From: Podochytrium sp. JEL0797 | Taxonomy: Eukaryota; Chytridiomycota; Chytridiomycetes; Chytridiales; Chytriomycetaceae | DNA: 33,490 nt | NCBI GenBank assembly: GCA_027596195.1 | Contig: JADGJG010000180.1 | Location: 1 to 33,490 of the forward strand | Direction: 5' to 3' | Shown: positions 322 through 26,033 of the stretch, piece after piece | How the letters are laid out: every line of letters starts with the position of its first letter | Position numbering within the stretch: the first letter of the stretch is position 1 | Made by a program: the position numbers and the translations under genes | Notes under the pieces: model-generated | Databases searched by the model: none | What the model was told of the DNA's origin: nothing | Seen by the model: only the letters and a program-made list of their open reading frames with translations

Positions 322-1951
322 ATGCTCGCCACCGGATCGTCCTCCTCCAGCGCCCCACCGAGACCAACCTCCAATACCGCCGACTCCGAGTTCAAAGGCA
401 ACCAGGACTCATTCTCAATGCCCTGGTGAGAGGCCTTGTTTGGGAATGGGCGGAGATTCAGCACTCACACAATCCGATGGACACCGCAGGGTCGAACACT
501 ACCGCCCGCTGATCCTCAAGGACATTGTGGGCAATGAGGATACAGTTGCGCGGTTGTCTGTGATTGCGCGTGACGGAAATATGCCAAATATCATTATTTC
601 GGGGTGCGTGCCTTGTCTACTACAAGCGGGACCTTTTTGATCCCTTGCGGAGCATGGAGATTGAAGAGATCAAACTGCCTTGGGAAGGAGGGGCGATTGC
701 TTTGGCTGACTGTGTCCCACAGACCTCCTGGAATCGGAAAAACAACCTCCATCCTCTGCCTCGCCCGTGAACTGCTCGGTGATCAATACAAAGAAGCTGT
801 GCTTGAGCTCAACGCTTCAGACGATCGGTATGCAGTTGGGGTTGCGTGTGGTATTCGCTGACGGGGACCCCTCGATTTTGTGCACAGCGGAATCGACGTT
901 GTGAGGAACCGCATCAAGATGTTTGCGCAAAAGAAGGTGACGCTGCCAGAGGGAAGACACAAGATTATCATCTTGGACGAAGCCGACAGGTTTGTGTTGC
1001 GGTTTTGGAGTGGGCTTTGGATTCTCGTTTGTAACTTGATTCCATTGCAGTATGACTCCGGGCGCTCAGCAAGCTCTTCGCAGAACGATGGCAAGAGTCT
1101 ATTCACGCTTCTTTTATTATGGTTGCTTCGATGAAGCTCATTCCCGCACTTACAGGAAATCTTTTCATCCACCACGCGTTTCGCGCTCGCGTGCAACATG
1201 TCGAGCAAAATCATTGAACCGATCCAGTCGCGTTGTGCGATTCTGAGATACTCGCGTTTGAGTGATTCCCAGCTGTTGAAGCGGTTGGTGGAGATTTGTC
1301 GATTTGAGAATGTGAGTGTGTGACTTGCTGTCCTTTTCCCTCCACAACCCCCTCTCTTCATTACTCTTTTTCGGAATTCCGCTTCCTCCTCCCTGTTTCT
1401 GCTCAAATCAAACTCATCCGCATTCATCCACGCACTCGAAAACAAAACAAAAAAGGTCGAATACGTCCCCGAAGGCCTAGAAGCCATCATCTTCTCTGCC
1501 GAAGGCGATATGCGTCAAGCCATCAACAACCTGCAAGCCACGCACTCTGGATTCGGCTTCATTTCATACGACAATGTGTTCAAAGTGTGTGACCAGCCGT
1601 CTCCGGCGGTATTGGGGGAAGTGATTACGGCGTGCATGCGGGCGGACGTGGATGCGGCTGCGGCTGGATTGGAACGGTTTTGGAATGAGGGTTACAGTGG
1701 CGTGGATATTGTAGGTACGTTGTTTCGGGTGGTCAAGTTCCATTCGATGCCCGAGTATTTGAAGTTGGAGTTTATTCGGGTGAGTTTGTTTGTGTGTTTT
1801 TGTGGTGTATGGGTCGACGAGGTCGCTCACGTCGCGTTCTTTTTTGTATTAGGAAATTGGACAGACTCACATGAGAATGATTGAAGGGGTGCAGACTGTT
1901 GTGCAAGTGTCTGGGTTGGCAGCGAGGCTGTGCAAGCTTTCTGCTCCGTGA
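322..1951 (+). CDS. RFC4: Replication factor C small subunit (human RFC2 / yeast Rfc4 type)
   Basis: Clamp-loader AAA+ ATPase subunit that helps load PCNA onto primed DNA in the nucleus. Exons 322-425, 490-603, 723-827, 888-989, 1051-1090, 1156-1311, 1456-1779 and 1853-1951 join in phase to 347 residues, close to the 354 of human RFC2. Visible in order: the RFC box PWVEHYRP (34-41), Walker [10 protein letters not shown] (73-81), LNASDDR, Walker B ILDEAD (136-141), sensor 1 ACN, the SRC motif (180-182), and the conserved C-terminal collar ending in an AARLCK motif. Position 5 of Walker A is Ile where Thr is usual. The intron at 1091-1155 begins with GC, not GT; using the nearest GT instead would insert two residues into the invariant RRTMEI stretch. 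The ATG at 322 was chosen because it reads into PWVE across intron 1. I am very sure of the family; the symbol follows yeast naming. Confidence 0.93.
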
Positions 1952-2798: not shown

Positions 2799-5605
2799 CT
2801 ATTTGCGACCCAACACATGCTGCACCAACGCCTCAGCAACCTCAAAATCAACCCCAAACGCCACATCCAACACGTCCTTCCCAATCGTCCCTGAATAATG
2901 CTCCAACAGCACCCGCACCGTCTCCACGCGCCCACGCCGCACACCCATTAGTAACAATACGCTTGAGATTTTGACTTGGAACCCTTTGAGCAGCGTTTTG
3001 AGCATCAACACGGATGCGTTCTGGATAGCGAGTGCTACCACGACGGAAGGGACGCACGACTCGGTGTCGCTGAAGAGTGGGGTATCGTTATGGATTCCCT
3101 GAGCTGCTGAAGATTCCGACGGAACGAGTGCCACCAACAGATCCACACGTCCGCTCTCCACTGCGGCGGCAAGCGCATACGGCCCCACACGCACCCCAGC
3201 CGTCAACAACACAATGATTGCAAGCGTGCTTCCCTCACGTACGGCCAGGTCCAACGGACCCTGCCCTTCCGTGGTGCTCGAACCCGATAAAGAGGAAGAC
3301 GGCCGCGCGAGAATCCTTTGTGTTGCGAGCATCAGTTTGACCGAAACAACCATCCCGCGCTTCGCAGCCATATACACATGCGCGCTCGACGGCACACAAA
3401 GTCCCGACACGAGCACCGCCTGAACAATCTCATCGTTCCCGGAACACACGGCGCTTCCCAACATGACTGAAACCTGATCCTCCGTGAATCCGCCAACTTT
3501 CAATCCCTTCAACAGCATCTTGAGCACCCTCACGTTTCCCTTCTCCACAGCAGCCGTCACGGCGCATAAACCAGGAACAGCACCACACTCCACAAGTGTT
3601 TCAACCACAGCCCAATTCTCCTGCCGCACTGCCAGATCCAACGGCGTCTGCGCGAGTCCAGGGTTTTCTGCAATCAAGAACCGCGTAATCGTCCTCCGGT
3701 TTTTACGCGCCGCGATAAACAAGTCACTAGCGGTTGCAGACACTTTCGTGGCGCCCATCACGACCGCGAGGAGTGGTACGTTTTCTGTCTCGATGGCGCA
3801 AGTGAGGGATACTTGGAACAGCTGGGTGGAGGTCGCAAGGGTTTCCGGAAGCGCAGGGAGAGATTGTTGATGCAAAATGAGTGTCAAGAGAGCAGCTCGG
3901 TTGTTGAGAAACACGGCGGATGTGAAACACGCGTCGGTGACGTGGGCTCCCGCTTTGAGGAGCCGCGCGAGCACGGAAGGGTCGCCTTCGTGAATCGACA
4001 TGTTGACGGCTTCGGTTGAGATGGCCGATGTGCAGGATTGCATGACTAAATCGAGGACAGGGATGCGTTCGGAGACAAGGCCGGTAGCGGGGTCCACGAG
4101 TTCAAAGGCGCGACGGTCGTCGGTTCCGAGGGTGGATTTGGCTGCAAACAGCACATCGGTGGCGGTTACGGGACATGCCGGGGAGGCGAGGAGGAGTTTT
4201 AAGCATTTGAAGCTGTGTGAGTCGATGGAGAAGGACACTGCCCCCGCGGGTGGTGTGGCGTGTGTGGCGAGGAGAAGCGACAGGATGGAGTCTTCGTCTT
4301 GCGAAATGGTGGTTGCAAACGCGACGCGACTCACGGGCACGTTCTTTGAGAGGAGTAACTGAAGAATGGGGGTGTGACGGTTCAAGATCGCGAGGTGCAA
4401 CGAGCTCGGTGGGATCAATGGATCGAGGGATTCGAACGCGTCGTCGCGGGGTGAAACGAGGAGGAGCTCGAGAATTTCAAGTTGCCCGTCTCTGGAGGAG
4501 AGTTCCACGCAGCGACGCCAGAGTTCTCTTGAAGCGCCGCAGAGGAAGCGGTGGTGGTCTTCTTCCAACGGGGTGAAGGGGTCAAACGGGTCCGCGGTCT
4601 CGACCACAGAGGGTGGTGTGGTGCGGCAGGCGTCGTACCATTCAATCAGCATTTGTACAAGTTGTACTTTTTGAGAAAGGACGCAGCGGCGGAGAGTGTC
4701 TGGCTTCACTGTGTGACACAACTCGAACAGGAGTTTGGCCGAGCCAATGTGCCCGTTCTCGCAGGCGATCAAGAGCGCTTCAGGGGCTTCGGAGAGCACG
4801 CGTGCATACAACGATTCGCAAGCAGACGCATATGCAAGCACGAGAGATGTGAATCGCGCATCTGGACGCGTAGCGGCTGTTGCGAGTAACCGGGGAACGA
4901 TCGAATTTGCGGGAGGGGAAATGGATTGAGCCATGAGTAAATCCGACAAAGAAGACACGTTCAGATCTTGCAAGTCCAACAACGCGTGCCGCACAGCGTG
5001 AACGGCGAGCCAGGGAGGTGGATTTTCGGCTGATCCGGGGACCAGCAACGAGGCGATTTCGAAACAGGATTCCTTCATGGCCAATGAAACGATTCGTGCG
5101 TCAATGATGGAGGAAGGCAGGGATTCGCGGTCTTCAATCTGCCAGTGCGTCAAGACTCGCACGGCGTTGACGAGGTTGGATAGCACGGCTTCGTGGATGA
5201 GGTTGCGGGTGAAGAAGCGAGAGTCAATCTTGTACAGAGCTATAGAGTAATATACTGGGTTATTCTCTCAACCTAATTGAGTTTCGTGAATACCTCTCAC
5301 GATTCGCCCTGGATCTGCGATCGCAAACTCGCTCGTTCCACTGGCCCTCGCCAAGCGATCCAAATCAGAAGCAGTGATCACTCCCTGGCGGTTCAGCACC
5401 TCAGCGCAAAAGGACGGTGACCGCCACGTTGAAACAAAAACGCCTATGATGCGAATTAATGAGCAGCGAATCCAAACGAAACAACTCAACTCCGCGTCAA
5501 AAGGCACAAAGTGAGAAGCCGTGCGCTGAGAACGGAAGTGTCACTGGTGCGCACGAGGATCATGGCCCAGAGCTCGGTGGGGAGGATCACTTCTGCATCA
5601 GTCAT
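2799..5605 (-). CDS. Ankyrin-repeat protein with F-box-like N-terminus
   Basis: Proposed exons 5605-5491, 5443-5294 and 5239-2799 encode about 901 residues. The N-terminus starts MTDAEVILPTELWAMIL; the Leu-Pro-x-Glu-Leu start and the later TWRSPSF resemble the F-box-like heads of fungal F-box/ankyrin proteins, which can act as substrate receptors of SCF ubiquitin ligases. The large last exon contains many degenerate ankyrin units, recognisable from repeated patterns such as ENGHIGSAKLLFELC, DLAVREGSTLAIIVLL and EKGNVRVLKMLLKG, continuing nearly to the C-terminus (VLGRK). Intron 2 (54 nt) is secure by phase. Intron 1 is less so: a donor at 5544 would also keep phase but would remove most of the F-box-like segment. 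A decayed partial copy lies at about 18200-19132. The family call is firm; the F-box reading is tentative. Confidence 0.8.
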
Positions 5606-7006: not shown

Positions 7007-10000
7007 TCAAACCGCAACCGAATCCACCCCCTTTCTCCCCCCTCTCCGCGTCTTGACCCAATCTCGCACCGCATCCCGCTGCTTCTTGCCCGTCATGTCC
7101 ACCTTCTTCTTCCCCTCCAAGAACCCAAAGATCCAATACGACATTGCAATCGCGCCCTTGTCAAACACCATCGTGAACAGTTTAGACGCCACAATCACAA
7201 TCGTCAAGAAACTGAAAAACATGAGCCATGCGTCGAGTTCGCTGATTTGAGTGCTTGTGGAGCCTGATTTTGAGGGAGGAAGATGCGATCAGTTTGCATT
7301 AAGGGTTTGTATTCAGGGAGTTTAATCAACCTTTCATGACCCAGGAAGCGAAACGGGGAACATATGCACCCAAAACAAGCGGGTGCAAAAGGTACGTCGC
7401 GAATCCAATGTCACCCAAGAACCTATCGACCAAAGTTTAGAAACCTCAATCGCACCAAATCCACAACAAAAAACCAACCTCAACGGAGCCAACTCCAAAC
7501 ACCACCGAAACACCTCCGAAAGCTCACAAATAATGCACACCAAAGCGCCCGCAATCACGCCTCCGGGGCTGAACTGCCAATAGAGCGGATATGTCGCACT
7601 AATGACCGTGAACGAGTCCCCAAACTGGTTCAACGCGAGGTAGTTGAGCCCTTGGTTCAACCGCGTATCACCGAGGTATGAAAACGTGCAAATCACGGCA
7701 ATCAAGACTCCGCAAATCACGTGGCGAGTAACGAAACCAGGTTGACGCAGGTGCGACTGCATATCGATAATCATGTATCCGAGAATGAAAGGGTTGAACC
7801 AAATTTGAAGCATGTAGGTCAGAATGGCGAGGGGGATCAAAAACAGGTAACGCCGCTTGGAATACACAATGATGGCGGACGTGAGAAAGTAGATGGAATA
7901 CGAGTTAGCCATTTCTGGAAACATGCTCCATTGGACTGCAATCGTCGAATACGCGGGATTGATGTCGCTTGTGTACTGAGTTTCGCGTTAACCTTGGAGC
8001 AAAACTCGCAGCAACGGAGACTCACTATTAAAACAGACTGCGAAAACGTTTGCCAAACACTCGGGACAGCAGAATTGCCAGCGTATGGAATAGAGAATCC
8101 TTGCGGTTGGTTGCTATACGCGCCGGCTTGTCCGAGAACAAAAAAGAGCGCGCTTCCGCCAAAAGTCGGGAACCACAGTCGAAACGGACGACGAATCACA
8201 TTGCTCACGAAGGTGCGAATGTTGGATTTCTTGAGGAGCTGGCGATTGATGACCGCGCCTGAGAGAATGAAGAACAGTGGCACGGCGAAATCCCACATGT
8301 ATGTTTGCTGTTGCAAGCGAAATGTCAGCAAAATCACGGCCCCCACAACGCAACGCGCTACGAACAATCTTCTGCTGGCTTGCCGACTTCATAAAACTCG
8401 GGAGCGCATCGTTGTAATGTTTGATCACCACAGCGACAGTTGCAGCCTACGGTTTGAATCGCATTCAGTTAATTTCAGATACAGCAGCACCAAATCTCAA
8501 AAAAACTCACCCCTCTCAGCCCATTGATGTAAATCATATGATCGCTCTTGACTTGTATCGGATTCGAACGCCGAATTTTGACGCGGCTCGATTCTTTTGG
8601 GTCCGGGTGATCGCCTCCTGCCAAAATGTGGAGAATCCATTTTGAGATGGCTTTGCTGTGGTTGTCGAACGTGACTTTGAAGGCGGTCGCTGCCAAAATG
8701 GTGGAAGCGAGGGTGACGCCGTAAATGGTCCATCCTTGAACCAACGTGAGAGAAGTGTCCGTCGGGTCGCGGTCTGTTTGGGGACAGTTTCAGTTTTTCG
8801 AAGACCCAGAAAAGGGTGAAAATTTCAAACCTGGCGACATCATCAAGTTGAAAATCCACGGCCGAACCGAAACCATCAAAACCGGATGAAGAAGACAAAC
8901 GCCCACAGAAATACGCCCCAGCAACCTCAACAGAACCATTTGGAGGACATAACGCACCACACCCGAAAGCTCACAAATCAACAGAATCGCAACGGCGGCA
9001 AAGAACCCTCTCGAATGGAATGGGAACGGCACAAACGGAAGAGTGCTTGGGACGGGAGGGTACACCAGTTTCGGATCCGCCAGAGAGGGGCTTCCAGTCA
9101 CAAGGAACGAGTTGTTGCCAAGGCCTCCAAACGAGTTGTAGACAGCCGTCGGGAGCCCAAACGAGCCATTTTGGTTCACCATGATGGTTCCCATTGTATT
9201 GTCGAACAGAGAATCGGGCACGAAGTAGAAAGACACAACAACAGCGGCCAAACAAATCGCGAGAACGTATCTGAGAATCACGTTGAAGCGGCGAATCTGC
9301 GGGGACATCTCCATCACAATCAGCCCAGCGATTCCAACCGAGCACCACAACTGCGTCAGATAACACACGAGAAACAGCGTAAACAGCACGATCCACTTTT
9401 TCTTGGGAAACAGGACAGCGACGGAAGCCAAACTGAAAACCATGAACGAGTTGCCCAGTTCGATGGAGAGGGTCCAGAGAACGTTTTCAGGATACATTGG
9501 AGGCAGTTGGCGACCCAAGAGGACAATCGGCTGTTTGAAGCACTGCCAAATCGTGGGTGTGATGAAGGCGCCAGTCTCGTTCCTGACGGGGATAAAGGGA
9601 GCCAGGCCGTCGAAGCGGGACTGTGCTCCAGCGAGCTGCCAGAAGGCGCCAGAAATGTCAAGGCACCAGTAAAACATCAACGCGCCGACCGCAAGCCAGT
9701 AAAGCCGGAACGATCTCCCAATAGTCAGCGAAGCAATCGTTTCCAACGTGCAGGAACGCGCCAGGCGAATCGCAACGACGCGTCCAGAGATGGCAAAGAA
9801 GAGATAAACCGCAATAAAGCCTTTCGAAAGCTGTGCGTGTCGAAAACAAGAATGAGTGAGATCGTGATTTTCTCAACACAATAACACAAGACTTACAAAC
9901 TCCATTCCCGGCGCCGTGTTGAACGCCGTATTCCCGAGCGAAAACACTTCGAGACAAGCCAATGCTCTCAACCCATCGACATAATCAACACCATCCTCAG

Positions 10001-13000
10001 CCTCCATCGACTTGACACCCTCCTCCTCCTCGACAATCGACTTCTCGGCAGCATCAACGACACGCTTTCGGCGCCGGCTCCCACTCGCCGAAATTGCGAA
10101 AATATCGCGACTATTGCTATCCCGCCCCAAACTCGTGAACGCAATACTGCGCGGCAACGACCCATCCGACAAAACCTGCAACCCCGCTCCCACCACCGAC
10201 TTGGCCGCCACCACATACTGCAAAGCGTTCGTGTAGAGATGGCTCAAGTGACAAACGACCAACGGCGCAACGTAAAAGCAAATGATGGAGATGGGCGTCG
10301 CGAACCAGTCGAAATGGTTCCAGTGGGTTCGTTGGAAGACCATTTGGGACCGGATGCCAAGGTATTGAACTTGCCCGGGGATCAAGTGATCTTTGGAGTG
10401 GGCTTGTTTCGCCCAGCGGTCAACAGCGACCCATTGGTGGTAGCGGTTGTAGTAGTAAATGACCACGAGGAATGGAGCGAGGATGAAGAAGCGCATGTAG
10501 AACATGAGGCCGAGAGATGCGGAAAGACTTTCAGAGACGGGAGTGGAAGTCAGGCGCGACCACAGGAATTGAGAGCCGTGCATATAGATCGAAATGGCGC
10601 CGTCTGGGATGAAGAACATTGACACAACCATTATGATGAAGAAATGTCCCATTAGGAGGTGCGCTTCAAACATGCGGTGGAAGAGAGTGACAAGATGGCC
10701 GCGCTTGAATGCAATCTGGTGGCCTGGTCCGTATTCCAGAAATGGATCTCGTTCCATGTCGAGAGTCTTGGCAAACTCGAGAGCTCGAACTTCTTGGACG
10801 CATTCTTCGGCCTCGTGCTGTAATTTTCAAACAAGCAGTCAGAATTATTCCAGCAAAAGCATTCGCAAATGAGTTCACCTGCAAGAACCCTCGTTTGAGC
10901 GCCCACCCCGAGTCCAACGAGCCCCAAAGATGACGCTTCGCTTGGATGTATCTCGCCTTCAACCCTGAAAAGTATCCGTGCATCCCGGGCAAATCTTTGC
11001 CCTCCACATTACACTGCGACGCTGGCGAGTAAATCGTCTTGACAATCACGCGTCCGAAAGTCGCAAAGAAACACTTCAAGTACATGTGCAAGTCTTCTCC
11101 CATCGCTGCGGGGCCCGTGTCCCAGAAGTTGACGGACGCGCAAAATTCCATCGACAAAGAATACGCAGAGCACGGAAACTTGACACTCGACGAGTCGTAG
11201 AGGTTCGAGATGACCCCGACACACCAGAAAATGTCCGTCATGCGAGCAAACACGGAAACTTTCATTGCGTTGCGATCGAAAACGGTGGTGGGCGCAAACA
11301 TCATCACGTTGCGTTCCGCAGGGGTCGCTGCGACAAAGTGGTATGTGACGGCAGCAAAGTAGTCGTTGGCAAAGCACGAGTCGGAGTCAATCACAGAGAA
11401 GACGGATCTGGGTCTCTCCAACTCTTTCGTCTTCTTGTACGTCTCGGCGGTGGCCCAAGCAGTGTTGGCTGATTTGCCTCGAATTTCTCCAGGAATGTCC
11501 TTGGGATGCACCGAGAAGCGGATTGATTTGAACTTGGACTTGTACGCAGTGACGAGGGTCTTGGCTTTGGCCGTGCAGTTGTCCTCCGTGGCCTCCATTC
11601 CAAGCACAATCTGAACCAAATCGTTAGACCGCGGATTCCATTTGGAGAATAATCGAACAAAAACGCGTACCCTGTACGAACTCGCAGCCCAGACATGCGA
11701 AGCAAGGACATCCAGAGTCTCGCACAGCGTCCCCATCTCCTCCTTGTAGTTGGGGATGATAATCACGTGCACAACATCCTCGAAGCGCAAATCGCTCCCA
11801 ACAACATCCTGCGTCTTCTCATACCAATCCGTGTGAGAATGCTCTTTTGAGGCACGGTAGGCAATGTGGACAGCATACGCCGTGCGACAGTTGTTGGCGA
11901 GGAAGTAGAAATGAAGGCCGCCAAAATAAAGGCAATACACGATTGGAAAGTACACGGAACTGAAGATGACCATGGGGACGAGGAGAAGGAGCCAAAGGCC
12001 AAACAGGCGCTGCATCATGAAGCCGAGAATCTTGTTTCTGCGGTCTCTGGGCTCGTTCGAGTTCATGCGCTCGAGCTTCATGCGGCGGTAACACGTCCAG
12101 AGGACATTCGAGCCGGACATGAGCGCGCCGCAAACCTGGAGAACAATCAGAATTCCAAAGACGGTATCGTAAGCATTGGTCTCGGATCTTGGGAGCGAGG
12201 AACCCTGGTTCGGTGAGTCAGCACGCTGGAGCGAACATGACTGATTTTTCGATAGAAGCAAATTACAAAAACGCACCTGCAGCGCAACAGAACGATAAAC
12301 GAACGTGAACAAAAGTCCCCCAACCGCGCCAGAGAGAGACAAGGAAGTCATCATGACGCCAAACTTGGACAGTGCCAACTGGTTATCAAATCTTGCATCC
12401 AAGAGCAACGAGAGAATCACGCCAAAGCAGGCACCGAAGAGAGCAATCATCAAAGCAGCAGAAAACACAAACAATGGTCCATTCACAGTCAAAATCGCGT
12501 GTCTGGCCAGGATCGCCCACAGAATCTTGATGTTATAATTAATTAAGCACGTTCAGAAACCAAGGTGGGAATAAAACACTCAAAAAATTAACTCAACCTG
12601 GCTGACAGAAACAGCAACGAGAATGCCATGGCGCTTGCGGTTCAGGAAGCCGTTCGAAGTAATGATCCAAGAGAGAATGCCACCGCCGGCCAACGCGACA
12701 CCCATCAGAGAGTTGATATCCGCAGCTTGAGACAGAGACATTCCAAACTGGGATACCACAATGGACTGAAGTTGCGGGAAGCAGAAAAGTCCTCCGAGCT
12801 GGACAAAGAAGAAGATGGCATAGAGAACTTGATATTCCGCGGTGTGGATTTCTCGCATGAGGGGACTCGACGAAGAGGCTTGTTTTTCGCCACCTTTTTC
12901 GTCCGATTCGTAAAACCTGTTGTCAATTGGTTAGAAACGTTCCACATTGCAGAAAAGGGAACAAGAGAAAGTACGCAACTCCAAAATCGCCGCAACTTGA

Positions 13001-13819
13001 GATCCGATCACCATATCACCACGAAAGATGCAAGAACCACACAGGCCGGCAATGAGAAACATCGCACCAAGGAGAAGAAAACTGACAGCCAAAGAAAATC
13101 CACCAGCAAGCAAAGAGTGATGCACCAGCGGAACGACCACAACGCCAAATCCGATCGATCCGATCAAAACAGCAGACACCACCCCGGGCTTGTCCTGTCA
13201 GTGTCTTGATCAAAACCGACCCACGTGCGAGGGTTCAAACCATACACTCACCTGGCAGCAACACTCCAACGCGACCAAACAGCACATGAACGAAACACCC
13301 GAGCTCGCACCGCAAAGCAATCCGTCTTGGTGATGAGGGGAATCAGTTGTTTTAGTCGAAAGCACTCAAATAAGGTTTGACTCACACATGGCCCACACAA
13401 GCCACACTTTTTGCCACCACGCGCCAACCGCCGATCCGATCAAACCACTACAGAAGAGCAACGAACTCGAAGCAGAGCAGAACTTGACACCAAACCGCGC
13501 AATCAGGGGAACGGAAACAGCAGCGGCCAGGCCAAAGGCGGAAATGGCGAAAAAGAAGGCGATCGAAGCCAAGCCAGGGGAGAATCCAAACGCGGTTGAT
13601 TCAAGAGACATGCCAAAGCCAGACCAAGCGTACACCGAGCTGGGACCGAGCTGGTGCATTGGTTTGTTGGTGAGTTGAGTGCTGGGATCGGGTGGAGGAA
13701 GCAGCACAAACCATCACGAGGGGAACACCGAGAAGAAGACGCCAGTTGAACGAGAGGTCCTCTGGACCAGAGTAGCTGTGTTGAACTGGATCAGAGTAGG
13801 TGGGAAGCACTTGTTGCAT
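7007..13819 (-). CDS. Four-domain fusion: MFS transporter - GT2 glycosyltransferase - acyltransferase-3 - acyltransferase-3
   Basis: Sixteen exons (13819-13712, 13650-13386, 13325-13252, 13194-12980, 12916-12598, 12525-12277, 12204-11671, 11610-10879, 10817-9897, 9830-8831, 8773-8511, 8446-8366, 8307-8026, 7975-7479, 7422-7331, 7263-7007) join in phase through 15 introns to about 1,962 residues. MFS covers about 25-450. The GT2 unit (about 470-1060) shows PNYKEE (561), DxD-type IDSDS (662-666), GED (759-761), QAKRHLWG (811-818) and C-terminal helices. The first AT3 domain (about 1110-1515) starts DYVDGLR and keeps RSFRLYW and a conserved Glu. The second (about 1551-1930) starts YINGLRG and keeps RRPFRLW and YLLHP. 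Each domain junction lies inside one uninterrupted exon (7, 9, 11). Family knowledge suggests membrane glycan synthesis, transport and O-acylation; substrate unknown. The donor at 12979 (GTTGCG) and the exact end of exon 1 are the weakest splice calls. Confidence 0.85.
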
Positions 13820-13903
13820 CGTTTGGTTTTTGGGCTTGTTTTTTGCACTTCAAAAGACACGCGTTTTTTCTTCATCAGAGCGTTACACAAAACTCTCACG
13901 AAA
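13820..13903. promoter_or_regulatory. 84-bp divergent promoter between the fusion gene and acetyl-CoA synthetase
   Basis: The two start codons point away from each other with only 84 bp between them, so transcription of both must start inside this stretch or inside the neighbouring gene. It is T-rich on the plus strand and contains one palindromic ACGCGT at 13859-13864, roughly midway. ACGCGT is the core of the yeast MCB element, but no factor can be assigned here. Shared control of the two genes is inferred from the spacing. Confidence 0.55.
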
Positions 13904-16215
13904 ATGTCTCACATCGCCTCTCTTGAAGAGTACCAGCAACTGTACAAGAAGTCAATCGAGGAGCCAGAAGTGTTTTGGGAAACCATCGCGCGTGAGGAAG
14001 TCGAGTGGTCCATTCCGTTCGAGGACGGTGACGTTGTGCGAGGGTGGGCCGCCTTCGTTTCAACTCATCAAACGATCAACTACTGTGCTCAATTCATTAA
14101 TCATTCTATATAGCAACTTTGCGGAAGGCTCCGTCGCGTGGTTTTCATCCGGTTTTCTCAACGTTTGCGTCAACTGTGTCGACCGCCACGCCGCAGTGGA
14201 TCCCAACCGCACCGCCCTGATCCACGAGGCAGATGAACCAGGACAAGACTGCAAGATCTCTTATGGAGAGTTACTGGTTCAAGTGTCGCGATTCGCGAAT
14301 GCCTTGCGCAGCTTGGGTGTCTCGAAGGGTGAGGGTTCACAAGCCTCCTCGCATCTCCATTTTTCAAGACACTCACGCGAATATTTGAACCTCTTTCAGG
14401 CGATACTGTTGCCATCTATTTACCAATGATTCCTCAAGCGGTCTACGCCATGCTCGCTTGTGCCCGAATCGGTGCTGTTCACAGGTGAGGATAATATTTT
14501 TGAGAGCGAATCGCGGGCTGCTGGTTCTTGGCTGATTCTTCGCCTTTCCAAACCAGTGTCGTGTTTGCTGGGTTCTCTGCCGAATCGCTCGCTGGGCGCA
14601 TTCAGGATGCCAAGTCCAAGATCCTCATCACGTCCGATCAAGGGAAACGCGGTGGGAAAACTGTGCACTTGAAACAGATTGCCGACCTTGCCGTAGGTCA
14701 GTGTCCATCGATTCAGGTTTGGCTTGACTGATAGTGTCTTGAGTTGCTCACCGATCTGATCCTTTTTTCACAACAGCACGTGATCGTGTTCAGAAGAACT
14801 GGCGACCCCATGGTACCGTTCACGGCTCCAAGAGACGTTTGGTGGCACGAGGTCATCGTAAGTATCTTCCGTCTCATGTTTCACTGCACCAGTCTTCTCA
14901 TGACGCGCGACTCGATCAGGAATCCCAAGGCACGCACTGCGAACCCGAGCTCATGAATGCCGAAGATCCCCTTTTCATCCTTTACACGTCTGGAAGCACC
15001 GGCAAACCAAAAGGAGTCCTCCACACGTCCGCCGGATTCCTCATCTCCGCCATCGTCAGCCTCAAATACGCGTTCGAAGTTCGCCCCGGAGACGTGAACG
15101 GCTGCATGGCAGATGTCGGATGGATCACTGGCCACACGTATGGCGTGTACGGGCCCCTCGGGCTCGGAGTCACGACTCTCGTCTTCGAATCCACGCCCAC
15201 GTATCCAAACGCCTCGCGGTTCTGGCAAACCGTCGACAAGCACGGAATCACTCAACTTTGGTCCTCTCCCACCGCGCTGCGCCACCTCCGCAAATGCGGA
15301 GACGAGTTTGTCACTCCTTTCGACTTGTCGACCCTCAGAATCCTCGGTTGCAACGGCGAGCCAATCAACCCTGAAGTGTGGGACTGGTACAACACTGTGG
15401 TGGGACGGAACCGGTGCGTCGTCGTGGATAATTATTGGCAGACGGAAACGGGCACGATTGTTGTGAGCGCGATTCCCCACGTGACTGAAACGAAGCCCGG
15501 GTCTGCAACTGTTCCGTTTTTCGGGATCGAGCTAGGGATCGTGGATGCGGAGACTGGAGAGGAGTTGGTGGGAGACGAGGAAGTGACTGGCGTTTTGGTA
15601 GTCAAGAACTCTTGGCCAAGCATGTTCAGAACCGTTTACGGGGACCACGAGAGATTCTTAGATACGTACATGAGACCGTATCCGGGCTGCTACTTTACGG
15701 GTGATGGAGCACGACGCGACAGCGACGGGTATTATTGGATCACGGGTCGCGTCGACGACGTGATCAGCGTTTCAGGGCACCGCCTGTCCACTTCAGAAAT
15801 CGAATCAGCCTTGATCCAGCACCCCTTGATTGCGGAGAGTGCGGCCGTTGCCATTCCAGACGAATTGACGGGGCAAGCCATCGTCTGCTTTTGCACGCTC
15901 AAGGACTCTCCCAATTCGGCCCCGCAACCCTCCACCGACGACTTGAAGCAATTATCTTGCACGTTCCGTCGTCACGTTCGCACCAAGATTGGCCCCATTG
16001 CAACTCCCCAATCCGTGTATGTGGTCGCCGACTTGCCCAAAACGCGAAGCGGCAAGATTATGCGCAGAGTTCTCAAGAGAATCGCGGCGGGAGAAGTCAG
16101 TGTGAAGGATGTGAAGGATGAGGCGCATGTGAAGAGAAAGCTTGGCGATGTGAGCACGTTGATTGAGCCGGCTGTTGTTGGTGTGCTGGTGGACAGTGTG
16201 GCGAGACAGGCTTGA
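13904..16215 (+). CDS. ACS: Acetyl-CoA synthetase (AMP-forming acetate-CoA ligase)
   Basis: Converts acetate, ATP and CoA to acetyl-CoA, AMP and PPi. Exons 13904-14043, 14114-14328, 14400-14484, 14557-14716, 14777-14857 and 14920-16215 join in phase to 658 residues, the normal length. Visible: the N-terminal [17 protein letters not shown] stretch, RDVWWHE, the P-loop [10 protein letters not shown] (250-259), YWQTETG (399-405), the hinge region [18 protein letters not shown], and C-terminal SGKIMRR with its catalytic, often acetylation-regulated Lys (about 606). For the last intron I used the acceptor at 14919 (62 nt), which keeps the usual spacing between WWHE and AEDP; an acceptor at 14892 would make a 35-nt intron and add nine residues. 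AATAAA follows the stop at about 16299. It is transcribed divergently from the fusion gene, whose AT3 domains would be expected to use an acyl-CoA. Confidence 0.95.
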
Positions 16216-16516
16216 CTTTGGTTGTCGTGGGTTGGTTTGCATTGCGCTCTGGTTTCTTTTTGTCTTTTGACACTCTTTTTTGCTTGTCTGCCGCGGAAAT
16301 AAAAATGAGAGTTTGGCGTCCGAAATTATGCATTCGGACAAAAATTTCAATTACCCGACGTTAGGTATTTATGCTCAATTTTGATTATTATGTCTTGCCA
16401 AGAAGCGTGGGAAAGAGATGATTGAGTCATCGAACTTGGCGTTTGCAATCGCCTGAGTCGAACTTGGCATGAACAACAAAAAACACCTCGAAACCGCTAC
16501 GACCATCCCATCATCC
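16216..16516. other. Intergenic region between ACS and the first Slm1-like gene
   Basis: Holds the ACS 3' end with an AATAAA signal near 16299 and the leader of the following gene. A TATTTAT string near 16366 could be its TATA element. An ATG at 16469 is in frame with the downstream gene, but the paralogs indicate the start at 16517. Nothing else is seen. Confidence 0.45.
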
Positions 16517-18164
16517 ATGACAGATAGAAACACTTCTCCAGAATCAGCACACTCTTCTCCAGTAAACCTTGATCCTGCCGATGTCCTGATCGAACGAGCC
16601 AAAGGATGGAAGGAATTTGTCTCCGCCTTGAAGCACAAGTTTGAACGGAAAGCGGAATTCGAGAAGGCTGAGCTTAAGATTCTTGTTGCCGATCAGAAGG
16701 TACATATCCCCTAACTGGAGTGTAGCAATGAGCAGACAACGGATGGTGTGTAATCGTCAACCCTATCGAACGAGATGCTACAAGCGGATTTGAACAACGA
16801 AACGATACTTGGATTACGTCGCATCTAATCGACAAAGCTCTCTGTTGGTTTCATAACTAACTATTTTCTACAAATCGTGACTCAACTATAGGGCTGGTCA
16901 TCTCCTTTCCCACTCCGAGACCTTTCATTTGTCGAGGAATCCTCAATCAGGAGTCTTTCGTCCACGTTACAGTCCGATGCAACAGCAAAAGTTTCTCAAC
17001 ACACGGCATTGCTCGAGGGGTTGCTGAACCAAACCGTTCCCGCCTTGGATGGTCTCAATCAGAGTCTCAAAAAGAAGGTGCTCGCTTTGGAGACCGATCA
17101 GAAGGTGAATTTGATTGCTTGCCGTTTGCTCTTCAATATTCCTCATCCACTTTTCTGCGACAGGAACGCCGCACCGAACGAATCCAAGACATGGACTTGG
17201 TCTCCAAAGCCAAACAGGCTCTTTCCAAAGCCCTCCACGCCTCCGAATCCAACAAAGACCCATGGCTCTTGAATCTTGAACTGCGCGTGAAACTATCCCT
17301 CGCGACCACCCGCCACGAAACTCGAAACGAATCCCTCAAAGCCGCCAAGACCGATTTCAAACTCTTTGAAGCCAATTTGATTCGACAGCTCAAGATTGTG
17401 TTGATGGGTGTCATGTCGTTTACCGAGATTATGCCCACGCGAACGGATCTGTCTGCCGAGATTGAGAAGGCGTTGGAAAGTTTGGACACGGAGAGGGAGT
17501 GGCAATTGTTTTGTGACGCAAGGTTGGATAAGACGGAAGGACCCGCCATGTTTGAGACGGAGCATGAAGAGTGGTCTCATGAGGCCATGGTGCAGGTTGT
17601 TTACGAGGGTGTGTTTGGTCGCAAGGGGATCTTCAACAGTTTCCGTGAACATTATTATGTTCTAACCGTCGGTGGATTTCTTCATGAATTCAAAATGAAG
17701 CCTTCGGTCGAACATGGTGAATGGATGGACCCTGAAGATACGATCCAACTTGCAGATTGTTCCTTGGGTCCGCTCGGAATCGACTGTCAGTTTTCGTTGG
17801 CGGAGAAGAGGAAGGGTGCCATGTTTCAAAAGTCATACAGAGTTGGTTTTCCTTTTTTCTTCGTCATCTTCGAACTACGGGGCGCTAGCTAAAATTCTGC
17901 TTTCAGTTCTTGGGCTCTTCGTTGTCCGAAAGCGAGGTGTTCCACGCGGCCGTCGCGTCGGTCGCCAACATTGCCATGGAGCTGCGATCTACCGAAACTG
18001 TTGTGAGAATCGCCGGTCAAGATTCCCCTTTGTCGTCTCCGTTGCCGCCTCTTGACAGTCCTCGTCGTGGATCAGTGATTTCTTATTATGCGAACGTGGC
18101 TGGAGATACAGCCGCAGACCCGATCATTGCTTCTTCTTCCGCTGCTTGGTCGAATTCTAAATAA
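16517..18164 (+). CDS. Slm1-like BAR-PH protein, copy A
   Basis: Exons 16517-16699, 16892-17104, 17164-17841 and 17907-18164 encode 443 residues. Residues about 16-270 form the Slm1-type helical BAR region, starting LDPADVLIERAKGWKEF and including TDFKLFEANLIRQLK. Residues about 275-386 form the PH domain, with VVYEGVFGRKG, HYYVLTVGGFLHEFK and QKSYRF. In yeast, Slm1/2 bind PI(4,5)P2 at eisosomes and act as TORC2 effectors; that role is known for the family and only inferred here. The start at 16517 matches the paralogs; an in-frame ATG at 16469 would add 16 residues. It lacks a Lys-Ala pair found in copy B after the Gly-Arg-Lys of the PH domain. The stop codon overlaps an AATAAA (18160-18165). 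Confidence 0.85.
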
Positions 18165-18199
18165 ACAAATGATTCGAGCGATCTGTTGTAATACAACTT

Positions 18200-19132
18200 G
18201 TTCGATGCACCTGCTTTGAGGAGCTGCGTGCGTGCGGTCGGGTCGTCTTCTTGAATCGACATGTTGAGGGCTTCGGTGATTACAGATGGGCACGATTGCA
18301 TGACTTTGGAGATGAGGTGTGGAGCGCTGCCTGATGGTCGTTGCGGGCTCAACCATCGTCACAGCGCCATAGCTGGGAGGTTTGTTGCCCGGCTGGTTGC
18401 CCTCTAGCCTGGTGAGGCTGTCGGGTGGTGCTGGGTGACCTCCGCTCAAAGTGGTGGTGGTGATTGCTGATACCGTATCTGTTTTCAGCAGCCTTCTTTT
18501 ATTTTATTGAGGCCGACTGAGTGCACTCTAAATATATAAGTATTAGCACAAACCAATAGATCTCCAATGGCAACATAACAAATAACCGGCACAAGAAGAG
18601 GGACGGAGAGTATATCTGGCACACAGAGGCTCGTCGGGTCGACCAGTTCAAACGCGCGGCGGTCGTCGGTTCCATGGAAGGATTTGGCTGCAAGCAGTAC
18701 ATCTGCGGCGGTGACGGGACATGCTGGAGACGAGAGAAGTAGTTTTCGGCATTTGCAGCTTTGCAAGTCGATTGAAAAGGACACTGCCCCCGCAGGTGGT
18801 AAAGCGCGTGTGGCGAGGAGAAGCGAAAAGGATCGAGTCTTCGTCTTGCGAAATGGTGGTTGCGAACGCGACGCGACTCACGGGCACTTTTCGCGAGAGG
18901 AGCAACTGAAGAACGGGCATGTGACGGTTCAGGATCGCGCAGTGCAGTGAGCTCGGTGAGATCAATAGATCGATCGATTCAAATGTGTCGCGGGGTGAAA
19001 CGAGAAGGAGCTCGAGAATCTCAAGTTGTCCGTCTCGAGACGAGAGTTCCATGCAGCGACGCCAGAGTTCCCGCGAAGCGCCGCAGAGGAAGCGGTGGTG
19101 GACTTCTTCCAACGGGGTAAACGGGTCGAACG
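18200..19132 (-). pseudogene. Decayed partial copy of the ankyrin gene
   Basis: Two blocks match the ankyrin gene at 2799-5605 in the same orientation. About 18200-18310 corresponds to 3946-4047 (shared peptide pieces VMQSC, LLKAGA). About 18627-19132 corresponds to 4090-4592, with clear shared peptides such as FDPFTPLEE, HHRFLCGASRELWRRC, DGQLEILELLLVSPRD and FATTISQDEDSI. Frames are broken between the pieces, and both ends of the gene are missing. Roughly 310 bp of unrelated sequence replaces about 42 bp between the blocks. Directly upstream is Slm1-like copy A; directly beyond is a fragment of the fusion gene, so the order copies that of the 2.8-13.8 kb region. Confidence 0.85.
18311..18626. 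other. Unrelated ~310-bp insert inside the ankyrin relic
   Basis: Sequence here has no counterpart in the intact ankyrin gene and separates its two matching blocks. It includes a GC-rich part (18340-18460) and an AT-rich part with CTAAATATATAAG near 18529-18541. I see no clear terminal repeats or target-site duplication and no coding sequence. It may be an inserted element fragment or replacement DNA. Confidence 0.4.
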
Positions 19133-19140
19133 GCCGGCGG

Positions 19141-19336
19141 GAAATTAAATCGCAACCGAAGCCACATCCTTCCTCCCCCCTCTCCGCGCCTTGACCCAAT
19201 CCCGCACCGCATACCGCTGCTTCATGCAAGTCACATCCACCTCCTTCTTCCCCTCAATACGACATTGCACTCGCGCCCTTGTCAAACACCATCGTGAACA
19301 GCTTGGACGTCACAATCGCAATTGCCAAGAAGCTAT
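19141..19336 (-). pseudogene. Relic of the C-terminal exon of the fusion gene
   Basis: On the plus strand this stretch aligns with about 7003-7213, the last exon of the MFS-GT2-AT3-AT3 gene, in the same orientation. Shared strings include CTCTCCGCGCCTTGACCCAA (one change) and CCCTTGTCAAACACCATCGT. A deletion of about 16 bp near 19254 and several substitutions break the frame. The next block is joined directly to the other end of the same gene, with all of the middle missing. Confidence 0.85.
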
Positions 19337-19339
19337 ACG

Positions 19340-19487
19340 GCAGAGGAACGGAAACAGCGGCGGGTGCAGGCCAAAAGCGGAAGCGGCACAAAAGAATGCG
19401 ATCGAAGCGAGGCCAGGAGAGAATCCAAACGCGGTCGACTCAAGGACCACTACACAGTCAGACCACACATACACCAAGCTGGAAACA
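19340..19487 (-). pseudogene. Relic of the N-terminal MFS exon of the fusion gene
   Basis: Aligns with about 13503-13651 (exon 2, first MFS helices) in the same orientation; shared strings include GGAACGGAAACAGC, GAATCCAAACGCGGT and ACACC(A/G)AGCTGG. The frame is broken by small indels. Because the preceding block comes from the very end of the gene, some 6.3 kb of the original have been lost between 19336 and 19340. No trace of the acetyl-CoA synthetase that follows in the intact region is visible. Confidence 0.8.
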
Positions 19488-20378
19488 ACACAAATTCGCT
19501 CCAAATTTTCTTATTTTTTATTCTTTGAGCCACGAGACAAAACTCGAAAAAAGCGCGAATTCCCTTTCCTCCCCACCTCCATAATTTATATGGAAGGCAA
19601 TTTATATGGACTGACCCCAACATCAACACACTCGGATGGTAATTCTTTGAGCCATAAGCGTGTCCAGAAAAAGCGGATCTTGGAGAGGCCTTTCAATCCG
19701 AACTCACTTAATAGGAAGCGATCTGTGCCAAGGTCGACGGAAACTTCGAAATGTCCCTTGTAGCGGCGGACAAAATGACCTTGGAGCTAAAGCACAAATC
19801 CTTCAACTTGCCGATGATTGATGCAACCATGACTAGAAGCGCGTGTTCCTCGAGCCAGTTCGTTGTCAGTCATGTTTTTGTTGTCGAAAACGAGTGTTGT
19901 GGCTGGTTTTAGATTCCATGGGCAAAATAAATCATACACGCGTCCTCATTTGGGATCACATGCCCCGTAACACAGCGGATATTTCGTGTCTGCTTCAAAT
20001 AATCGGATTAAATGGCATCCTGGGATTTACTGCAGCTGCCATTTAGAGAATTATGAATGTCCTCCTTAAGGCTTGCGTCTAGGATGCAAGCCGTTGGGCT
20101 ACGGTAACGCGTTTTATAAAAAAAGTCTTCAAAATTTTCTAGAATTCGGGATAGCTGTTCCAAATGACGTCTTTGGATGTCCCTGGGAACGCCAAAAGCG
20201 TTTCTACATAGTCGTTTTTTCGCGTACTCGTAAGCTCTTCATTTCGAATGAATTTTTCAGTTCTTCCACTTTCGTTCCGGTTGTAAAAAGAAAAAATGGG
20301 AAAATAAATGGCGTTGAAACGCGCCCCCTGGGACCAAATACAAATCTCCGGGAAACCGCAACGACCATCCGATCAATC
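19488..20378. other. 890-bp spacer between the relic block and Slm1-like copy B
   Basis: No recognised gene. It has a 12-bp direct repeat AATTTATATGGA (19583 and 19599) and an open minus-strand stretch of about 66 codons without an ATG (19586-19785), with peptide pieces KGHFEVSVDLGTDRF and WTRLWLKELPSE that I cannot place. A hairpin lies at 20071-20097. The last part is the leader of copy B and resembles that of copy A. In the intact arrangement this position would hold acetyl-CoA synthetase; I see no ACS remnant. Confidence 0.5.
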
Positions 20379-22042
20379 ATGACAGCTAGAAACGCTTTTC
20401 CAGAATCAGCACACTCTTCTCCCGTAGACCTTGATCCGGCCGATATCCTGATTGAACGAGCCAAAGGATGGAAGGAATTTGTCTCCGCCTTGAAGCACAA
20501 GTTTGAACAGAAAGCTGAACTCAAGAAAGCTGAACTCAAGGTTCTTGTTGCCGATCAGAAGGTACACATCCTCTATTGAATTGTAGTGAACGGCAGAGAC
20601 GGATGGTGTGTAATCGGAAAGTCTAGCGAATACAAGCGGATTTGAACAACGAGGCGGCACGTTCATCACATACTTGGATTGCATTGCATCGAATCAACAC
20701 ACCTCTCTATTGATGTTTCATAACGAACTGACCGTTTTCCAAATCGTGACGCGACTAAAACAGGGCTGGTCATCTCCTTTCCCACTCCGAGACCTTTCAT
20801 TTGTCGAGGAATCCTCAATCAGGAGTCTTTCGTCCACGTTACAGTCAGATGCAACAGCAAAAGTTTCTCAACACAAGGAATTGCTTAAGGGATTGCTGAA
20901 CCAAACTGTTCCCGCTTTGGATGGTCTCAAGCAGAGTCTCAAAAAGAAGATGCTCGCCTTGGAGACCGATCAGAAGGTGAATTTGATTGCTTGCCGTTTA
21001 CTCTTCAATATTCCTCATCCACTTTTGTGCGACAGGAACGCCGAGCCGAACGAATTCAAGACACGGACTCGGTCTCCAAAGCCAAACAGGCCCTTTCCAA
21101 AGCCCTCCATGCCTCCGAATCCAACAAAGACCCATGGCTATTGAACCTCGACCTACGCGTGAAACTGGCCCTCGCCACCACCCGCCACGAATCTCGAAAC
21201 GAATCCCTCGAAGCCGCCAAGACCGATTTCAAACTCTTTGAAGCCAATTTGATTCGACAGCTCAAGATTGTGTTGATGGTTGTCATTTCGTTTGCCAAGA
21301 TTATGCCTACACGCACGGACTGGAGTGGAGAGACTGAGAAGGCGTTGGAAAGTTTGGACACGGAGAGGGAGTGGCGATTGTTTTGTGAGGCAAAGTTGGA
21401 TAAGACAGAAGGACCTGCCATGTTTGAGATGGAGCAAGACGAGCAGTCTCATGAGGCCATGGTGCAGGTTGTGTATGAGGGAGTGCTTGGTCGCAAGGCC
21501 AAGGGCATCTTCAACAGTTTCCGTGAACATTATTACGTTCTGACCGTCGGCGGATTCCTTCACGAATTCAAAATGAAGCCTTCTGTCGAGCATGGTGAAT
21601 GGATGGACCCGGAGGACACGATCCAACTTGCAAATTGCACGTTGGGTCCGCTCGGAATCGACTGTCAGTTTTCGTTGGCGGAGAAGAGGAAGGGTGCCAT
21701 GTTTCAAAAGTCATACAGGGTTGGTTTTCCTTTTTTCTTCGTCATCTTTGAACTACGGGGCGCTAGCTAAAATTCTGCTTTCAGTTCTTGGGCTCGTCGT
21801 TGTCCGAAAGCGAGGTGTTCCACGCAGCCGTTGCGTCTGTCACCAACATTGCGATGGAGCTTCGATCTACCGAGACGGTTGTAAGAGTAGCCGGTCAAGA
21901 TTCCCCTTTGTCGTCTCCGTTGCCGCATCTTGATAGTCCTCGTCGTGGATCAGTGATTTCTTATCATACGGATGCAGCTGGAGACACAGCCGCAGACCCA
22001 ATCATTGCTTCTTCTTCCGCTCCTTGGTCGAATTCGAAATAA
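20379..22042 (+). CDS. Slm1-like BAR-PH protein, copy B
   Basis: Exons 20379-20561, 20764-20976, 21036-21719 and 21785-22042 encode 445 residues. It is the closest relative of copy A; domain order is the same: LDPADILIERAKGWKEF at the start of the BAR region, FKLFEANLIRQLK in its middle, and a PH domain with VVYEGVLGRKAKG and HYYVLTVGGFLHEFK. Introns 2 and 3 are almost identical to those of copy A. The C-terminal tail after the PH domain is Ser/Pro-rich (SSPLPHLDSPRRGS) and probably disordered. The stop overlaps AATAAA (22038-22043), and copy C starts only 99 bp further on. Predicted role as for the family: phosphoinositide-binding, membrane-curving plasma-membrane protein. Confidence 0.85.
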
Positions 22043-22141
22043 ACAATGTTTTATGGGTCACTTGCACCCGCTTGTTCCTGTGCTCCCTTCATTCTGACTC
22101 ACGCAGTGGGAAAAAAACAACTCAACGAGACACAGAGATCA

Positions 22142-23838
22142 ATGTCCTCCACACGAGCAACGTCCGTAGCCAATGAATCGATCCAATCTGCAGCATTGAA
22201 CCTCGACCCTGCCGATATCCTTTGCGACAGAGCCAAAGGGTGGAAGGAGTTTGTCTCTGCGCTGAAAAACAACTACCAGCGCAAAGCCGATTTCGAAAAG
22301 GCTGAGCTCAAGGTGCTCATTGCGAACCAGAAGGTATGCATTTCGATTCGCTGCTATGAATTGAGGGTTTTGCGGCTTTGTGGCTTGCGGCCAGGGCTTG
22401 CGGCTTGGGCTTGCCATTACAATTTCGATAGATGTCGCACCCACCCTCTCCGCTCCTCTTCTCTAACTTTTCCTCTACTTCTCCTCAGGAATGGACGAGT
22501 CCCTTCCCACTCCGCGACGTTTCCTTTGCCGAGGATTCTGCTGTCGTCAAAATTTCGTCTGCGTTCCAGTCCGATACCACAAAGAAAGTCTCGCAACACA
22601 CTGCAATGCAGGAGAGCTTGCAAAAGCAAACCGTTCCAGCATTGGACGGAATCGTTTCGAGCCTCACCAAAAAGTTGTCTGCGTTGGAAAAGGACCAAAA
22701 GGTGTGTTATTGAATGTCGTTTATTACGCAAGATTAACGATGTGGGATTTCAGGACCGTCGCGCCGAGAGACGCAAAGACGAAGAAATGATCACCAAAGC
22801 CAAAGACTCCCTCGCCAAATCCCTCCTCTTAGCTCGCGCCCAAACCCCCGGAAAGGACCCCTGGCTCATCAAACTTGAACTCGAAGAGAAACTCGTCCTC
22901 GCCACCACCAAACACTATGCGAGAAACTTATCTCTCGACGCGGCCAAAACCGATTTCAAGCTGTTCGAAGCGAATCTGATCCGTCAGCTTAAAGTAGCTT
23001 TGATTGGCGTTTCTTCCTTTTCGGAGATTATGCCGACCCGGACAGATCTTTCGGAGGAGATTGAACCCATGTTGGAGCATTTTGATGCGGATGTGGAGTG
23101 GGACGCGTTTTGCGTCGCGAGACTGAACAAGAGTAGCGGTCCTGAAATGTTTGAGTCTGCTCAGTACGAGGGTTCTGACGATCCTCTGGTTCGCGTGGTT
23201 CACGAGGGATTCTTGGACCGTAAGGGGAAGGGCATCATCCAGACTTTCAAGGAGTATTTCTATGTCATCACGGCCAGCGGATACCTGCACGAGTTCAAAT
23301 CGCGACCATCGCTTGAGTACGGGATGAAGGTGGAGCCGGACGATACGATTTGTCTCAAAGAATGTACGGTAGAGGCGGTTGGTGGCGGTCGCAACCCAGA
23401 TCGATTCTCTGTCATTGAAAAGAAAGGAACCATGTTCCAAAAGTCGTATCACGTGAGTTCATTGATCGCGTTTGTCTGCAAAATTCTAATATTTTTCGGG
23501 CTTTATAGTTCAAGGGCACCTCCTTACCCGTCAGTCAGCAGTTCCACGCTGCAATGGCGTCAGTTGCCAAAGTTGCTCTTGGAGTGCTCCCACCAGTTGG
23601 TGCTGTTCAAGCCCAAGGTCCCGTGAAATCTGCTTCTCCGATTTCTGCCGTGGAAACGGCGGCCAATCTTGCGGTTGAAAACGCGGCGGCCGAGTCCCCA
23701 CTTCCAGCTTCAGTTCCGGCTTATGAAAGGCCTGCTGATCTTTCTGGCGGAAATGCAGTGGCTGAAACTCCCCTTCCAACGTCTCTGCCAGAAGTTCCTG
23801 CGAACCCCTCGTCTCCAGCCTCTGCAGCGGCCGCTTGA
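22142..23838 (+). CDS. Slm1-like BAR-PH protein, copy C
   Basis: Exons 22142-22333, 22489-22701, 22754-23452 and 23509-23838 encode 477 residues. The BAR region opens with LDPADILCDRAKGWKEF and carries TDFKLFEANLIRQLKVALIG; the PH domain contains VVHEGFLDRKGKG and YFYVITASGYLHEFK. It pairs with copy D, sharing the Cys-Asp before Arg-Ala and a GKDPWL insertion type. The tail after the PH domain is Ala/Pro-rich with a degenerate repeat of the form N-A-x-A-E-x-P-L-P. AATAAA follows at about 23891. The very short gap after copy B leaves about 100 bp for the end of one gene and the promoter of the next, so its promoter may lie within copy B. Confidence 0.85.
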
Positions 23839-24130
23839 AAACGTTGACTCCATTGTCTATTACATCAAAACAGTCGTATCTATTTCATTGGAATAAAAGT
23901 TCTCTTTTTTTCTCTCACATTGCAGCACATAAAGTCCAAATTTTCTTGTAATCAAACGTTAGGAAAATTGTGGGAAAATTGCCCAATGCGTTGCTAATAG
24001 CCCGCCAACAAATCCAGTTCTCCCTATGCTAGGCGAAACCACAGTGAATCCAACTTGCAAATTGCATGTTGGCTGACCAATCCAATGAAAAATTGTTACC
24101 AGTCCGGCGGGCCCTGACAAATCTACCGAT

Positions 24131-24158
24131 TTGTGATTGCGGTCGACCGCAATCACAA
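24131..24158. promoter_or_regulatory. Perfect 28-nt palindrome upstream of Slm1-like copy D
   Basis: The half-site TTGTGATTGCGGTC is followed immediately by its exact reverse complement, with no spacer and no mismatch. It lies about 50 nt upstream of TATA-like strings and 120 nt upstream of the copy D start. A dimeric factor site is the natural reading. I do not see the same palindrome upstream of the other copies. Confidence 0.55.
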
Positions 24159-24204
24159 TTCAGACACAAATATTTACTTGACCACAAAGAAAGGTCCGAA
24201 TTCC

Positions 24205-24222
24205 TATTTATAATCGTATAAA
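24205..24222 (+). promoter_or_regulatory. TATA-like strings before Slm1-like copy D
   Basis: TATTTATA (24205-24212) and TATAAA (24217-24222) lie 57-74 nt upstream of the chosen ATG. They decide the start: an in-frame ATG at 24222 overlaps the TATA string and would probably lie at or before the transcription start, so the ATG at 24279, which matches the paralogs, is preferred. Confidence 0.5.
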
Positions 24223-24278
24223 TGCAGAACGTTTGTGTAAGCAGAACTGGAAAAAAAATCCTCCACCAAACGCAATCA

Positions 24279-25917: not shown

Positions 25918-26033
25918 AATGAATATCCTCTCTTTTGAATTGAGAATTAAAGTGGAATAAAAATCGTTTTTTCATCCCCTTTGGTTCACCCAAATTAGCG
26001 CAGAACGTGCCAAAAAATTAATTTTTCCACTCG

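Follow-up and report, generated by a model that had tools for sequence, protein, structure and literature searches.

Organization of the fusion gene

The window analysed here, a 33,490-nucleotide stretch of DNA from the chytrid Podochytrium sp. JEL0797 (contig JADGJG010000180.1), carries on its minus strand a predicted gene (7007..13819; 16 exons, 15 introns, 1,962 amino acids (aa)) in which a major facilitator superfamily (MFS) domain is followed by a family 2 glycosyltransferase (GT2) domain and by two acyltransferase-3 domains, AT3-1 and AT3-2. The gene model is based on re-splicing, codon log-odds and the open frame of exons 6-8. When the exons were re-spliced on the minus strand, from 13819 to 7007, at GT-AG borders picked by hand, the exon and intron counts and the protein length given by the initial annotation were reproduced, with all 1,962 codons of the joined frame free of stops. 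The three exons that contain the domain borders (12204-11671 for MFS to GT2, 10817-9897 for GT2 to AT3-1, and 8773-8511 for AT3-1 to AT3-2) were recovered identical to the base. All 15 introns are of the GT-AG type and 50-72 nucleotides long; the donor of intron 4 (GTTGCG) is weak, and is the sole frame-keeping donor that was found by eye. A value of 1e-21 was obtained for 1,962 open codons but is not taken as a p-value, since avoidance of stops guided the choice of introns.

With the neighbouring gene as training set, codon log-odds preferred the used frame in 15 of the 16 exons, the exception being exon 3 (74 nucleotides; -0.29 in the used frame vs. -0.20 in another frame). A chance open frame is ruled out by this codon bias together with the match to a protein of Cladochytrium tenue (see below), and prokaryotic contamination is ruled out by the 15 GT-AG introns and the chytrid relatives. 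Introns 6 and 7 are each divisible by three in length and contain no in-frame stop, so that an open reading frame (ORF; 12492-10666), which starts inside exon 6 and covers exons 7 and 8, is open even when unspliced; the MFS-GT2 join is therefore independent of splicing. With all the borders inside exons, the earlier statement that the fusion does not rely on a doubtful splice holds.

Separate genes that lie next to each other, one for MFS and the next for GT2-AT3-AT3 (or with GT2 and AT3-AT3 apart as well), might merely look joined, as could be argued from the lack of an MFS part in the C. tenue protein and from the linker between GT2 and AT3-1 (aa 1040-1090), which is open but shows no codon bias when taken by itself (-0.06 bits per codon vs. 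-0.04 in frame +2, which contains 3 stops). However, the MFS-GT2 border lies in the ORF that is open unspliced, the last predicted MFS helix shares an exon with the start of GT2, the GT2-AT3 and AT3-AT3 borders each lie inside one exon, and the C. tenue model likewise joins GT2, AT3 and AT3; we consider separate genes very improbable. Given the joined open frame, the codon bias and the single C. tenue protein, it appears highly probable that, as first proposed, the MFS, GT2, AT3-1 and AT3-2 domains are encoded as one gene, and the prediction of one polypeptide from this gene is well supported.

The MFS domain

The MFS domain (12079..13819, minus strand; approximately aa 1-452, encoded by exons 1-6 and the first part of exon 7) exceeded the cut-off of PF07690 (MFS_1) when aa 1-448 were scanned alone (37.9 bits, cut-off 33.4). 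In the scan of the full-length protein at E ≤ 1, PF01757 was the sole listing, and neither PF07690 nor the GT2 model PF13632 was listed. The best NCBIfam match of the MFS part was the L-lactate MFS model NF049980 (95.7 bits, under the equivalog cut-off of 320), with an alignment that runs nearly end to end (aa 26-405 vs. profile positions 2-363 of 378). A bacterial OFA-family MFS protein showed 25% identity over aa 41-413; this alignment ends at aa 413, and the last 33 residues of the bacterial protein remain for the helix that hydropathy predicts at aa 424-442, within exon 7, which also opens GT2. In a protein search with the MFS part, two of the 7,994 candidates scored were listed, one of them bacterial and OFA-family by name (P0006), the other with an MFS Pfam label only (P0005).

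By these matches, the MFS domain resembles the monocarboxylate (lactate/OFA) type rather than any known glycan exporter. Because of this resemblance, and because the C. tenue protein is without an MFS part, the initial suggestion that the MFS domain moves the glycan is not supported. The domain might instead perform no transport and serve the glycan synthase as a membrane or trafficking module, a reading with which its divergence (the modest PF07690 score and a lactate-transporter score well under cut-off) and the scarcity of listed relatives are consistent, whereas the near end-to-end match in an open frame gives no sign of loss of function; we regard such a role as unlikely, although worth serious consideration.

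The GT2 domain

The GT2 domain (10194..12051, minus strand; approximately aa 462-1040) was delimited by PF13632 (38.2 bits for the GT2 segment alone, cut-off 27), by motifs, and by paralogues in the same genome, in which homology starts near aa 462. The motifs PNYKE (aa 561), DSDS (aa 663), GED (aa 759) and QAKRHLW (aa 811) were identified; DxD-like, GED and QxxR motifs are typical of membrane GT2 synthases, and the tryptophan of QAKRHLW comes after HL, unlike that of QxxRW. Crude hydropathy gave 4 helices in the GT2 part. A structure model of exons 7-8 in which intron 7 was translated along with them was too poor for use (mean pLDDT 45.8); the fold search with this model produced 0 matches at E ≤ 0.001, and the fold list, topped by glycosyltransferases at E 0.048 or worse amid unrelated folds, carries little weight. 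Sequence searches of PDB listed nothing.

The two AT3 domains

Over the full-length protein, PF01757 scored 46.9 bits (cut-off 31) in two stretches, of which the best (aa 1553-1904) falls in AT3-2 (7163..8537, minus strand; approximately aa 1552-1911). AT3-2 contains both the R-X10-H motif (R1559/H1570) and the RXXR motif (aa 1627), and the same motifs are present in the C. tenue protein. As described in PMC9833829, these two motifs are conserved and essential, R-X10-H being absolutely conserved, and essential in OafB and others.

AT3-1 (8667..9989, minus strand; approximately aa 1109-1508) was identified as an AT3 domain because it was matched by C. tenue AT3-2 in tblastn (3e-12, 26% identity, with this window only searched) and shares the start motif and RXXR. 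At the R-X10-H position (9933..9968, minus strand), motif inspection showed that the arginine is kept (R1116) but that R+11 is occupied by Gly in Podochytrium and by Ser in C. tenue; no His occurs at R+5 to R+20 of AT3-1 in either species. In contrast, RXXR (aa 1178 of AT3-1 here, aa 996 in the C. tenue protein) is retained in all four AT3 domains of the two species. The structure model of AT3-1 exon 10 was too poor for use (mean pLDDT 39.9). Thus, of the two AT3 domains first reported, AT3-2 was borne out by PF01757 and AT3-1 by homology, the latter without the motif His in both species.

Between the two species, AT3-1 is conserved on par with AT3-2, yet without the His, which suggests a changed role rather than decay; AT3-1 is probably non-catalytic or repurposed. 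An active AT3-1, whereby the protein would add two kinds of acyl group or act at two sites, would be in line with the retention of RXXR and of the R-X10-H arginine and with the 50% identity between species, and the GWT1 case (PMC12423673) cautions that activity without the motif His is possible; the absolute conservation of R-X10-H in AT3 domains and its essentiality in OafB and others (PMC9833829) argue otherwise, and we judge this reading to be distinctly unlikely.

Relatives in other chytrids

In the search with the full-length protein, 7,989 candidates (those with the most shared words) were scored and 4 proteins were listed, namely, a GT2-AT3-AT3 protein of C. tenue and three proteins that match the GT2 part; by taxonomy look-up, the source species of three of the four belong to Chytridiomycota. 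The C. tenue protein (HK405_012072, P0001; 1,746 aa, partial, with the C-terminus cut off) is annotated as a hypothetical protein and has the identical GT2-AT3-AT3 order. Identities between the two proteins are 342/568 (60%) in GT2, 185/369 (50%) in AT3-1 and 137/291 (47%) in AT3-2. Because the order is the same in this protein, GT2-AT3-AT3 is, on these comparisons, a conserved chytrid fusion core. Neither the domain scan nor the alignment revealed a recognisable MFS part in the C. tenue protein: only 36 of 151 aligned residues agree with the MFS region (24%), in a forced alignment onto a carboxylase-like part. Thus, fusion of the MFS part is known from the Podochytrium gene only.

At aa 1-200, directly before GT2, the C. 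tenue protein starts with an acetyl-CoA carboxylase-like region (PF01039, aa 111-172), which may reflect a gene-model error, a chimera or a real different fusion.

Proteins with the same type of GT2, alone, come from Phlyctochytrium bullatum (P0003, 50% identity over the GT2 segment) and Irineochytrium annulatum (P0002, 49%), and a protein of Rhizoclosmatium hyalinum, which we take to be a chytrid, also has this GT2 type (P0004, 35% identity over 29% of the query). All three differ from the fusion protein in that AT3 and MFS are not listed among their Pfam domains. In P0004, the GT2 is joined to an STT3 oligosaccharyltransferase (PF13632 and PF02516), and two adjacent genes may have been merged. 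A protein search with AT3-AT3 found none at E ≤ 0.001 among 7,993 candidates, with length limits that leave out the C. tenue protein.

The initial annotation knew of no described protein with this domain order: the four-part form was indeed seen nowhere else, and no description of it was found in the open-licence literature, but three of the four parts occur together in the unnamed C. tenue protein. The three-part core already exists in the database without a name. The search for the same architecture in other early-diverging fungi recovered GT2-AT3-AT3 in C. tenue, the MFS part being absent there.

Related sequences in the Podochytrium genome

The same genome (24.4 Mb in 995 contigs) was searched exon by exon, a procedure that short exons may escape. 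GT2 matches beyond the window were found on four contigs (C890, C745, C129 and C800). For the AT3-AT3 query, all nine matches in this genome fall on the contig of the window, including one within the relic described below, and PF01757 gave one match genome-wide, inside the window and under cut-off. MFS matches elsewhere are weak (C129, C567 and C771); that on C129 is 0.6 kb past a GT2 copy, in a frame whose translation looks by eye like a membrane protein of the OFA type. On C129 (L028, L029), several GT2 copies are clustered, with MFS-like frames just beyond on the opposite strand. The proximity of GT2 and MFS on this contig may be a hint of an older neighbourhood.

A decayed partial copy of the fusion gene (19144..19482, minus strand) consists of an exon-2-like piece (19482-19341; 80% identity to part of exon 2) and an exon-16-like piece (19334-19144; 81% identity to the last part of exon 16, as far as the stop), and the adjoining 19133-18636 resembles, at 85%, the ankyrin gene located downstream of the fusion gene. 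In the search of this genome, the relic stretch matched the window contig alone. The whole of 18207-19482 (minus strand) looks like a decayed duplicate that combines the two ends of the fusion gene with parts of the ankyrin gene (2799-5267). A second working gene is ruled out, the remnant being short and its matches lying in different frames. In the simplest reading, the fusion gene and the ankyrin block were duplicated and the copy decayed into the relic; as the relic joins exon-2-like and exon-16-like sequence, both gene ends were once duplicated together, which speaks to joint duplication and not to joint transcription.

Neighbouring genes and other features of the window

Divergent from the fusion gene lies a gene for acetate--CoA ligase (AcsA; 13904..16215, plus strand; 6 exons, 650 aa), which scored 874.1 bits against TIGR02188, over the equivalog cut-off of 724.95. 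In the two gene models, the start codons are separated by 84 bp (13820..13903), a gap that may contain a shared promoter or allow shared regulation.

Further along, two related sequences in tandem (16490-18168 and 20352-22046) are 89% identical over 1,707 aligned columns, and the array extends to 22109-27373, with further pairs at 65-83%. Within the array, the ORFs 17119-17892 and 22046-23626 match PH, and 17119-17892 is also BAR-like. A tRNA gene (57.1 bits) is located at 28281-28352 (minus strand), and the open frame at 1324-1884 (plus strand), when read by eye, resembles a portion of an RFC-type small clamp-loader subunit.

Proposed function

Taken together, the domain content suggests one multi-pass membrane protein in which a glycan synthase carries an acylation unit and, in Podochytrium, is also fused to an MFS domain of the monocarboxylate type, a proposal for which and against which we see about equal grounds. 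The GT2 domain would build a glycan at the membrane from a cytosolic nucleotide sugar, and AT3-2, with R-X10-H and RXXR, would transfer acyl groups, probably acetyl from acetyl-CoA, across the membrane onto that glycan; that the product of the GT2 synthase is acylated by AT3-2 is an assignment we favour slightly. AT3-1, with RXXR and no His, may serve to bind acyl-CoA or to keep the active half positioned. The MFS domain was probably gained in this lineage, or lost in that of C. tenue; it may import acetate or a similar acid, which the divergently encoded ligase would convert to acyl-CoA. We regard the role of the ligase as supplier of the AT3 donor as a tentative possibility, and that of the MFS domain as acid importer as rather doubtful. 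The combination of all these steps into a one-protein assembly line, with acid uptake by MFS, acyl-CoA from the ligase, glycan from GT2, acyl-CoA handling by a pseudo-enzyme AT3-1 and transfer outside by AT3-2, is improbable.

Several observations weigh against the proposal. Crude hydropathy gave 11 helices in the MFS part, below the 12 expected of MFS transporters, and no MFS part is recognisable in the C. tenue protein. No sequence relative of the GT2 family was listed in PDB at E ≤ 1. The domain search suggested initially returned MFS_1 and PF13632 (for segments alone) and PF01757 for AT3-2; for AT3-1 scanned by itself, neither Pfam (to E = 10) nor NCBIfam (to E = 1) gave an AT3 model. At least two further AcsA-like loci exist (on C512 and C68, with 8 of 44 candidates scored), and the neighbouring ligase therefore need not be dedicated. 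AT3-1 and AT3-2 have 8 and 7 predicted helices, respectively, below the ten transmembrane helices expected of AT3 domains (PMC9558356). The alternatives for MFS and for AT3-1 discussed above touch parts of the proposal, and the rest is compatible with them.

Conceivably, the product could be a short acylated oligosaccharide of the chitin type, a signal like the lipo-chitooligosaccharides, rather than a wall or secreted polymer, with the AT3 acting like NodX of rhizobia. Acetylated Nod factors are made by just such a pairing of GT2 and AT3 (NodC and NodX), but there is no indication of a GlcNAc substrate here, Pfam assigns the GT2 segment to PF13632 only, and there is no relative in PDB; this product seems highly unlikely.

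If the proposed synthase is real, chytrid biology would gain an acylated wall or secreted glycan; the complete assembly line, if real, would amount to a eukaryotic glycan synthase on a single chain that carries its own acylation and donor supply along with a conserved pseudo-AT3. A conserved AT3 without His beside an intact one offers a natural test of the role of the motif His. Functionally characterised eukaryotic AT3 proteins are few and their targets unknown (PMC9558356). In a GT2-AT3-AT3 chain, the candidate acceptor is given by the protein itself, and the question of the acceptor thus becomes directly testable.

Comparison with known systems

The closest counterpart, HK405_012072 of C. 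tenue, shares the GT2-AT3-AT3 order and an AT3-1 without His; it differs in the absence of MFS, the carboxylase-like start and the truncated C-terminus. The MFS domain is akin to monocarboxylate/OFA-type transporters in its best match to NF049980 and its 25% OFA identity, whereas its score is far under the cut-off of 320 and it is fused to GT2 here. AT3-2 is like bacterial AT3 proteins such as OafB (PF01757) in having both R-X10-H and RXXR (motifs from PMC9833829). In the AT3 fusions described in the sources cited here, the partners are SGNH or alanine/serine racemase, or NRF domains in the case of animals (PMC9833829, PMC9558356, PMC12423673), and neither GT2 nor MFS is among them; in the Podochytrium gene, the partners are GT2 and MFS instead.
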